DNA of 64,000 nucleotides, from assembly GCF_024022995.1 (NCBI RefSeq), contig NZ_CP099582.1:62001-126000 (forward strand), in the 5' to 3' direction. Below the pieces are notes generated by a model. That model did no database searches and was not told the DNA's origin. It saw only the letters and a program-made list of their open reading frames with translations. A program made the translations under genes and the position numbers. Source of the stretch: Thermococcus aggregans (GTDB taxonomy: Archaea; Methanobacteriota_B; Thermococci; Thermococcales; Thermococcaceae). How positions within the stretch are numbered: position 1 is the first letter of the stretch; each line of letters starts with the position of its first letter. This document shows, one piece after another, positions 26,181 through 28,984 of this stretch.

Positions 26181-26360
26181 TCATTCCTCGATTTCGTATG
26201 CTATTATCCTAACTTTCTTACCTTTTATTGTCTCCTTGAGAAGCCACCATAGCTCGGTTGGAATTTCTTGCCTGTGGGTCAACTTATCACCGCTTTCAAG
26301 CTCTACAGTTTTTTCTTCATATTTGATGAAGATCCCCTCTTTATTGAATACCTCCCTCAT
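26181..26360 (-). CDS. Small conserved-looking protein (59 aa)
   Basis: A 60-codon frame from ATG (26360-26358) to TGA (26183-26181), reading MREVFNKEGIFIKYEEKTVE, then a segment with the Trp pair PTELWWLLK, ending IIAYEIEE. The ATG overlaps the HAD gene's TGA as ATGA and is preceded by a strong GGGGGGTT; its stop lies 3 bases before the DUF4392 start. These joints, and a strand-and-helix composition with two Trp residues, argue that it is a real operon member. I recognise no family. Products this short are often left out of annotation. Confidence 0.72.
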   Translation of the reverse strand: MREVFNKEGIFIKYEEKTVELESGDKLTHRQEIPTELWWLLKETIKGKKVRIIAYEIEE

Positions 26361-27001
26361 CTTAAACCCCCCAGGATTTTTCTTAACTGATAAAGGCCCC
26401 TAATTTCAAAATCTGCAAAGTTATAATCTTCCGATTCATCCCTATTTATCCATACTGCAAGCATTCCAACATTTTTTGCCCCATAAACATCTTGATAAAG
26501 ATTATCCCCAATCATCATGGCGTCCTGTGGATCAACATTTAGTTTCTCACAGGCATATAAAAATATTTTAGGATCGGGCTTTACGGTCTTTACGTCGTCT
26601 CTAGTTACAACCACATCAAAGTACTTATCAAGCTTCGTTATTCTCAGCTTTAACTTCTGGTATTCTGGACCGCTGGTTATTACACCGAGCTTGTACCCTT
26701 CCTCTTTTAACCATTCCAGAGTCGGCTTCACGTCAGGGAAAACACGAATCTTGTGGGGATATGCCCTCAAGAGTTCCTCATATTTAAAATTCAGTCCAAA
26801 GCTCTCAAAAAAGAAGTTCCAGTCATGCCATTCGTAAGTGTTCCTTCTCTCAGAAAGCTCTCTAAGGAATTTTAATCGAGCGTCTCCTCTGGAAATTCCC
26901 AACTTTTTTGAAAGCATCTCATAAACCTGTGGAAGAAAAAGCATCACAAGCGGCATTTCACTTAAAAGTGTTTCATCTATGTCAAAAAAGATGGCTTCCA
27001 T
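26357..27001 (-). CDS. HAD-family hydrolase
   Basis: A 214-residue HAD hydrolase with a helical C1 cap. Motif I is IFFDIDETLL, motif II VITSGP, the Lys motif VKPDPKIF and motif III MIGDNLYQDVYGA, all complete, so it should be an active phosphatase. It resembles archaeal HADs annotated as phosphoglycolate or glyceraldehyde-3-phosphate phosphatase-like; the substrate is uncertain. Its ATG lies one base after the TAA of the FtsZ-like gene, and it overlaps the 59-residue gene, so it is embedded in a tight operon. Confidence 0.87.
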   Translation of the reverse strand: MEAIFFDIDETLLSEMPLVMLFLPQVYEMLSKKLGISRGDARLKFLRELSERRNTYEWHDWNFFFESFGLNFKYEELLRAYPHKIRVFPDVKPTLEWLKEEGYKLGVITSGPEYQKLKLRITKLDKYFDVVVTRDDVKTVKPDPKIFLYACEKLNVDPQDAMMIGDNLYQDVYGAKNVGMLAVWINRDESEDYNFADFEIRGLYQLRKILGGLR

Positions 27002-27002
27002 T

Positions 27003-27758
27003 TTACCACCTCTTGATTAACAACGAAAGGATTTCCACATTATTCTCTAACCCCTCCTCCATTTTTATTCCCCATATTATATCCTTTTCTTTCAAGAGCT
27101 TTTGAAACGTTTCGAGTATTTTGTGGGCATAGCTCAGAGGAACTTTTTCACCTACTAAGATGTTTACCAAGCCTTTGTCCCATATTCCCCAGTGCCAGTC
27201 GAAATCAATTTTCCTCAAAAGGCGGAGTATACCTATGTTGCTTCCTTTTATCATAGTGAAGAAATCAGCGTAATCAACGTTAACCAGCATTTGGTTTTCC
27301 AAGTAGTAGTGGAGTCTTGTAAACATTAACCCTATGCTCCTAGCGGCCATTTGGAATGCCGAGTCAAGGGAAGAAGAAGTGTATTCATCTAAAAACTCCC
27401 ACAGCGAGTCATAAAAGATTGTATCAAAGTTCTCTGCCCACAGGGGTTTTTCTTCGTGAACAAGCTCCTTTTGAGGGGTGAGAATATACGCTAATTTAAG
27501 AGGTTTTTCCGGCAGGTATTCGAGAATAACCTGCATTATTTCAATATTTACGGGCTTATTTTCAAGTATAAACCACAAAATGGTATCTTCCGGAATGTTA
27601 TAGAATAAATCCTTGAGATTCTGACGAAAAGAAGACTTTCCAAGCAAATAATAAGTTGGGTTTATTACCACCTTTGAAGCTCCTTCTATACCAATGTTTT
27701 GAACTACCTTGCCCCCGTTGTTCCCAATTCCAATAAAAATGTAAGGAAAAGAGGACAT
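27003..27758 (-). CDS. Divergent FtsZ/tubulin-superfamily protein lacking the GTP-binding T4 motif
   Basis: A 251-residue protein that can be aligned by eye to FtsZ along its length. The N-terminus YIFIGIGNNGGKVVQNI (6-22) matches the T1 loop region; FDTIFYDSLWEFL (111-123) matches the FtsZ TDTLIVIPN helix region; LVNVDYADFFTMI (158-170) matches the T7 loop NxDxxD with Asn160, Asp162 and Asp165; and GLVNILVG followed by IIWGIKMEEGLENNVEILSL (196-246) matches the C-terminal domain. The GGGTGTG T4 loop is absent and the protein is about 100 residues shorter than FtsZ. The role is unknown; it may bind or modulate another FtsZ or form non-GTPase polymers. The ATG at 27758 follows the HPS-PHI stop at once. 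Homology is inferred from visual pattern only. Confidence 0.72.
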   Translation of the reverse strand: MSSFPYIFIGIGNNGGKVVQNIGIEGASKVVINPTYYLLGKSSFRQNLKDLFYNIPEDTILWFILENKPVNIEIMQVILEYLPEKPLKLAYILTPQKELVHEEKPLWAENFDTIFYDSLWEFLDEYTSSSLDSAFQMAARSIGLMFTRLHYYLENQMLVNVDYADFFTMIKGSNIGILRLLRKIDFDWHWGIWDKGLVNILVGEKVPLSYAHKILETFQKLLKEKDIIWGIKMEEGLENNVEILSLLIKRW

Positions 27759-27763
27759 GTAAA

Positions 27764-28984
27764 TCACTCTAAGGTTGCATGCTTTTTCCTCATATCCTTC
27801 TCGGTCTTTTGGAACGTTGCCATTAGCAGTGCTATGACGCCATCCAAAAACAGCATTGTTGAGTCTTCAAAGAGTGTACCCATTGGAGCAATCCACTTGT
27901 ATTCAGTGAGCATTTGCCTTGCTATGTAATCCGTTGGAATGTCGGCTTTTGTTCTTCCCGGAATTTCTACCACAACGTCGGCAAGTTTTCCGAGGGTTGA
28001 GTCCTTATAGGAGGTTATAGCAACAACTTTTCCACCCTGCTTCTTTGCGATTTCAGCAGCATCTACTATCGTTCTTGTTTCACCGCTTCCACTGATTGCA
28101 ATTAAGAGGTCACCCTCCTCAAAAGCGGGAGTAATTGTCTCACCAACGACGTAGACGTTAAAGTCAAGGTGCATTAGGCGCATTGCAAAGGCTTTTCCAA
28201 CCAAACCGCTCCTTCCAGCACCGTAGATGAATATCTTGTTTGCACTTATCATTGAGTCTATCATTCCCCTGACTTGCTCAAGCTTTAAAGAGTCAGCGAC
28301 CATGTTTATGTGTTCGGTAATATCCCTAATTGCTTTCCTTATTGTGACCATGTATTCACCCCAGAACAGATCAAGTATTTTTCTGGTAACTTCTTCAGGA
28401 TCCTTTGCCTTTGTTATTGCACTACCAACGATTACAATGGTAGCCCCCGCTTCAATAACCTTTGGGATTGTCTCTAAATTTAAGCCTCCCGCTACAGCAA
28501 CTGGGACTTTTACAGCTTTTACAACTTTTTCTAAATCCTCCAAGGGGTTCTTCCCTTGAGCTTGCTCATCTATACCTGTGTGGACTAAGATGTAGTGCAC
28601 ACCCATTTTTTCAAGTTCTTTGGCCCTCTTCACTTTGTCTTTAACGCCAATTAAATCGACCATTACTTTTATTCCGTACTTTCTCGCAACTGCTACGGCA
28701 TCTTTTATTGTTTTGTCATCAGCAACTCCAAGGATTGAGACTACATCAGCACCATGCCTTGCTGCCATTTCAACTTCAAGAGCACCTGTGTCCATAGTTT
28801 TTAAATCTGCCACAATTTTCCTGTCTGGGAATCTTCTCTTCATGAGTTCTACTGCCCTCATACCTTCTTTCTTTATTAAAGGAGTCCCTACTTCAAGCCA
28901 ATGAGCTCCACCACGAGCAGCTTTCTCTGCTATGGAAATCGCCTGCTCAATATCAGTTAAATCAAGCGCCACCTGCAAGATCAT
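27764..28984 (-). CDS. Fused 3-hexulose-6-phosphate synthase / 6-phospho-3-hexuloisomerase
   Basis: A 406-residue fusion. Residues 1 to about 210 are the HPS TIM barrel (VALDLTDIEQAI, ADLKTMDTGALEVEMAARHGAD, VAVAGGLNLETIP). Residues ~215 to the end are the PHI SIS domain (IYGAGRSGLVGKAFAMRL, ISGSGETRTIVDAA). In Thermococcales this fusion runs the ribulose monophosphate pathway backwards to make ribulose 5-phosphate, replacing the missing oxidative pentose phosphate pathway, and yields formaldehyde. It is the first gene of the six-gene operon, and its stop is within 6 bases of the FtsZ-like start. Confidence 0.95.
   Translation of the reverse strand: MILQVALDLTDIEQAISIAEKAARGGAHWLEVGTPLIKKEGMRAVELMKRRFPDRKIVADLKTMDTGALEVEMAARHGADVVSILGVADDKTIKDAVAVARKYGIKVMVDLIGVKDKVKRAKELEKMGVHYILVHTGIDEQAQGKNPLEDLEKVVKAVKVPVAVAGGLNLETIPKVIEAGATIVIVGSAITKAKDPEEVTRKILDLFWGEYMVTIRKAIRDITEHINMVADSLKLEQVRGMIDSMISANKIFIYGAGRSGLVGKAFAMRLMHLDFNVYVVGETITPAFEEGDLLIAISGSGETRTIVDAAEIAKKQGGKVVAITSYKDSTLGKLADVVVEIPGRTKADIPTDYIARQMLTEYKWIAPMGTLFEDSTMLFLDGVIALLMATFQKTEKDMRKKHATLE

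Follow-up and report, generated by a model that had tools for sequence, protein, structure and literature searches.

A remodelled FtsZ paralogue of Thermococcaceae that has lost the GTP-binding motifs and kept the T7 loop

In FtsZ, residues of T3, the Glu and Arg of T5, the Asn of T6 and the Asp of helix H7 contact the nucleotide. A degenerate FtsZ domain acting as a regulator of FtsZ is exemplified by plant ARC3, a eukaryotic, multi-domain protein that inhibits plastid FtsZ and offers a parallel for the role proposed here. The GTP-binding motif proper is T4, and the T7 loop lies at the subunit interface beside the nucleotide of the adjacent subunit and acts on its GTP (PMC12583498). Archaeal FtsZ paralogues without the GTP motif are already known (PMC2875224; PMC3684127). 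In Nmar_1262 of Nitrosopumilus maritimus the GTP-binding motif is replaced by AGKAGSA and the T7 loop is lost too (PMC3684127), which indicates that T7 is not retained by default once GTP binding is gone. FtsZl1, a divergent prokaryotic family of the FtsZ superfamily (Makarova and Koonin, 2010), has the GTP-binding loop and lacks the T6-H7 elements (PMC2875224).

The window analysed here is a stretch of 64,000 nucleotides from Thermococcus aggregans, in which the open reading frame at 27003..27758 (minus strand, ATG at 27758) encodes a real, conserved protein of 251 residues, a GTP-pocket-less FtsZ paralogue hereafter called the FtsZ-like protein; an earlier note on this DNA had its position, strand and length right. 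With archaeal FtsZ1 and FtsZ2 (compare M. jannaschii FtsZ, 1w58/1fsz) it shares the fold, the T1 glycines, the long H7, the T7 signature NxDxxD and the WG strand, but it lacks the nucleotide contacts of T3, T4, T5, T6 and H7 as well as H9 and the C-terminal tail, measures about 250 residues against roughly 370-420, and has a different gene neighbourhood. As those two proteins are described, it differs from Nmar_1262, which is without T7, by an invariant T7 (PMC3684127), and from FtsZl1, which keeps the GTP loop, by losing that loop and keeping H7-T7 (PMC2875224). The open-access literature, searched also by neighbouring locus tags, gave no account of this family or of a pattern with T4 lost and T7 invariant.

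Homology, fold and loss of the nucleotide contacts

Taken as a single sequence, the FtsZ-like protein scores weakly against Pfam (E 0.14), NCBIfam (E 0.011) and the PDB (E 0.011), and its 15.1 bits to the FtsZ model TIGR00065 lie below the cut-off of 295.2. A family profile of 19 rows matches M. jannaschii FtsZ in hmmsearch (E 1.7e-7) in two segments, one covering H7-T7 and the other in the C-terminal domain, and a profile-profile comparison of 26 members with FtsZ1/FtsZ2 (hhalign) gives 97.7% and E 1.8e-12 over 237 columns, running end to end from T1 to the last strand. Controls with two neighbouring gene families, compared with FtsZ and with the FtsZ-like family, reached 0.0-0.2%. An AlphaFold2 model from a 26-row alignment (pLDDT 86, pTM 0.87) has its strands and helices in FtsZ order, with a long H7 (131-154), T7 loop, H8 and C-terminal domain sheet, the names of these elements being assigned in this analysis. 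All top 50 PDB matches of the model in Foldseek are FtsZ (best E 6.4e-12, probability 1.00), with query TM of 0.62-0.72 and a high rmsd of 5.5-7 A, indicating a domain placement that is unlike that of FtsZ or imprecise. The earlier note had proposed an FtsZ/tubulin-like protein to be checked by profile search and structure prediction; both place it in the tubulin/FtsZ superfamily, by significant profile homology that extends well beyond one short segment and by a predicted fold with a Rossmann-like N-terminal domain, H7 in the centre and a C-terminal domain.

A joint alignment of 22 FtsZs, 39 diverse homologues of the FtsZ-like gene and 8 members of a further paralogue family (f3, below) shows which parts of the FtsZ machinery are conserved. 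The T1-like glycine loop G10-I-G-N-N-G15 (27714..27731, minus strand), within the GIGNNGG of residues 10-16 that had been read from the sequence, keeps G10 and G12 in 39/39 homologues and G15 in 38/39. T3 is deleted in all 39, and the T4 signature GGGTG[T/S]G occurs in none of them; residues 66-73 at the T4 position read ENKPVNIE instead of GGGTGTG (27540..27563, minus strand), with Asn (N71) at the place of Gly-5 of the motif in 39/39 homologues and also in 8/8 f3 paralogues. The T5 Glu and Arg, the T6 Asn and the H7 Asp are each lost in 39/39, the T5 region being the least certain stretch of the alignment. By contrast with these losses, the T7 loop (N160-V-D162-Y-A-D165, 27264..27281, minus strand) follows NxDxx[D/E] in every homologue, and its triad N160-D162-D165 is invariant. 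The 39 homologues have 49 invariant columns among themselves, and of the 57 columns invariant in the 22 FtsZs of the class Thermococci the FtsZ-like family keeps 11, three of which are the T7 Asn, Asp and Asp. The central claim of the earlier note, that the GTP-binding T4 motif is gone and T7 is retained, is thus borne out by profile, structure and conservation across 39 sequences; from the sequences, an inability to bind GTP is strongly suggested.

The C-terminal domain strand motif K225-D-I-I-W-G230 (27069..27086, minus strand) contains W229 and G230, which are invariant in FtsZ too. A C-terminal signature IIWGIKMEEGL had been reported and is present at residues 227-237, but it is not the end of the protein, as one more strand follows and finishes at the invariant W251. 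The C-terminal tail for membrane anchors is absent, the protein stopping at W251 within that last strand, with up to about 12 residues past this position in a few lineages. The description as a truncated FtsZ does not hold: the strands and helices of the core are in place, and what makes the protein shorter is deletions within the fold (T2-T3 region, helix H9) together with the missing tail; the protein is a remodelled FtsZ. In place of H9 there is a nearly invariant Trp-rich loop, FxWxWGxWxxG (residues 186-196, window 27171-27203), which is absent from FtsZ, has W188, W190, G191 and W193 invariant and is likely a family-specific interface.

Operon context and distribution

The FtsZ-like gene lies on the minus strand between the genes for HPS-PHI, the bifunctional 3-hexulose-6-phosphate synthase/6-phospho-3-hexuloisomerase (27764..28984; NF041755, 555 bits against a cut-off of 500), and a HAD-family phosphatase (26357..27001; TIGR02253, 182.5 bits against 169.75, and synteny). 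From the HPS-PHI stop to the FtsZ-like ATG there are 5 nt, and from the FtsZ-like stop to the HAD ATG 1 nt, and the joints are similarly short in most of about 70 loci (HPS-PHI/FtsZ-like mostly 2-58 nt, FtsZ-like/HAD -4 to 17 nt). The order HPS-PHI, FtsZ-like, HAD is found in all intact loci examined that have all three genes, and the tight packing proposed from the window was confirmed. In some Thermococcus lineages a phosphoglycerate-mutase-like gene (about 235 residues, same strand) stands between the HPS-PHI and FtsZ-like genes (L043, 2380-3262; L088, 7150-8003), and L045 and L046 have a gap of like size at this position. Downstream of HAD and in the same orientation, the window encodes a protein with a D-glutamate-cyclase-like C-terminal domain (PF14336, 25362-26177), which is found there in most, not all, lineages.

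Of the 94 Thermococcaceae genomes, 89 have the FtsZ-like gene; no other family of the class has it in this form. A motif-pattern search of GTDB species genomes returned Thermococcales only, plus one partial Prevotellaceae match of 23% identity that was set aside. At least three of the five absences look like assembly breaks: in G062 and G064 HPS-PHI is cut off by the end of a contig, and in G057 the match to HAD does not set in before residue 17, the pattern expected of a contig break. In the other two, G036 (69% complete) and G050, HPS-PHI is missing along with the FtsZ-like gene, so that no genome demonstrates a true loss of the FtsZ-like gene alone. With dN/dS of 0.05-0.09 against close relatives the gene is under purifying selection, and it is probably vertically inherited in Thermococcaceae. 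One genome, G070, holds a second, broken copy (L058, contig C2), with an HPS-PHI remnant ahead and HAD behind, and an intact operon elsewhere.

Possible roles of the FtsZ-like protein

At FtsZ and tubulin interfaces a GTP face meets a T7 face; the FtsZ-like protein gave up the former and holds the latter invariant, making it a natural separation-of-function case for the control of filament ends. The reading we prefer, at a probability of about 0.4, is that it would regulate the division filament by capping its end and promoting hydrolysis there, and would be made alongside sugar-phosphate enzymes. The capper or regulator of a polymer that the earlier note had proposed is soundly inferred from the selective retention of T7. 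The protein would fold without nucleotide, dock by its T7/C-terminal-domain face on a GTP-loaded subunit of FtsZ1 or FtsZ2, at the end that exposes the nucleotide, and supply the catalytic Asn and Asp to the GTP of this partner; because its upper face is rebuilt, it would accept no further subunit and the filament end would be capped. Co-production with pentose-phosphate enzymes could link division to the supply of sugar phosphates or nucleotides. Since T7 acts on the GTP of a neighbour and the protein's own site is gone, the retention of T7 points to a GTP-bound partner, and, judged by sequence conservation, the FtsZ-like protein most probably still meets the GTP-bound face of FtsZ. Capping is also favoured by the proteins encoded in the same genome, namely canonical FtsZ1 and FtsZ2 (L060, L061) and a CetZ-like protein, names that we assign by similarity. 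Against capping, the T7 residues may be kept for structure, where they cap helix H8; the replacement of H9 by the Trp-rich loop means that the lower face is perhaps not FtsZ-like throughout; a C-terminal tail for SepF-type recruitment is missing; and the gene is linked to sugar-phosphate enzymes rather than to division genes. The gene is near-universal in a family that has genetic tools (T. kodakarensis) and in which the control of division is poorly known, and the operon offers a testable link from central sugar metabolism to division.

The metabolic operon and the invariant residues around the former pocket would allow the protein to sense a ligand or to partner an enzyme. The loops that border the former pocket, a set picked post hoc after the alignment had been seen, have 11/37 residues invariant, against 7/87 elsewhere in the N-terminal domain (Fisher p 0.004); the invariant ones include N71, P95, E98, W107, Y116, D117 and S118 and could accommodate a new ligand or partner. 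It is conceivable, if somewhat unlikely, that the site at the C-terminal edge of the beta sheet now binds another ligand, for instance a sugar phosphate from the neighbouring enzymes, and that the protein is a metabolite sensor, which may still signal to FtsZ by its T7 face. The Asn that replaces the T4 Gly in both families and the company of HPS-PHI and a phosphatase agree with such a sensor, but these invariants could equally form a protein interface.

The fixed gene order, the FtsZ-like/HAD gaps of at most 17 nt and the lack of any division-gene linkage at the loci fit an unlikely alternative, in which the FtsZ fold was co-opted to scaffold or regulate HPS-PHI and/or the HAD phosphatase without any role in filaments, T7 being structural. 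A scaffold would not be expected to keep precisely the Asn-x-Asp-x-x-Asp that works in trans on GTP, and in some lineages the phosphoglycerate mutase gene separates HPS-PHI from the FtsZ-like gene. It is quite unlikely that capping and sensing are combined, so that an FtsZ capper or GTPase activator with only the T7 half of the interface senses the sugar phosphate of the operon in its rebuilt pocket; if true, pentose supply would be coupled to cell division, with a parallel in the sister family. Improbable, too, is an adaptor that does not itself polymerise, or a protein binding FtsZ/CetZ filaments laterally, by a face other than T7, such as the Trp-rich loop (188-193), whose invariant residues absent from FtsZ speak for it, as this leaves the invariant T7 triad unexplained. 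Chance resemblance or a decaying FtsZ pseudogene, to which the weak single-sequence matches and the broken copy in G070 might point, is rejected as next to impossible in view of the profile match and its hhalign controls, the predicted structure, the 49 invariant columns, the low dN/dS and the near-universal presence in the family.

A second paralogue family without T4

A 309-residue FtsZ paralogue is found, besides canonical FtsZs, in 9 of 10 genomes of f3, which belongs to the same class (L096, 1969-2895; L098, 1021-1947; family members in L096-L098 and L130-L134). T4, T5 and T6 are lost in it and the T7 Asn, Asp and Asp (NIDFAD) are kept in 8/8, so that it repeats the pattern of the FtsZ-like protein, including the Asn at T4, a recurrence that counts for the capping role. 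It retains the T2-T3 length and the H9 region, which the FtsZ-like protein does not, and its neighbouring genes encode a Ham1-type NTPase and a ribosomal protein instead of HPS-PHI. The tree unites it with the FtsZ-like family (97/95), with branch lengths of 4.8 and 2.0 changes per column that make the grouping tentative and long-branch attraction possible; the Asn that both have at T4 is consistent with the grouping. A third FtsZ of genome G112 in family f4 (L099, 1457-2440) has canonical GGGTGSG and T7 motifs, takes a basal position to the GTP-less families in the tree and possibly resembles the ancestor of both.
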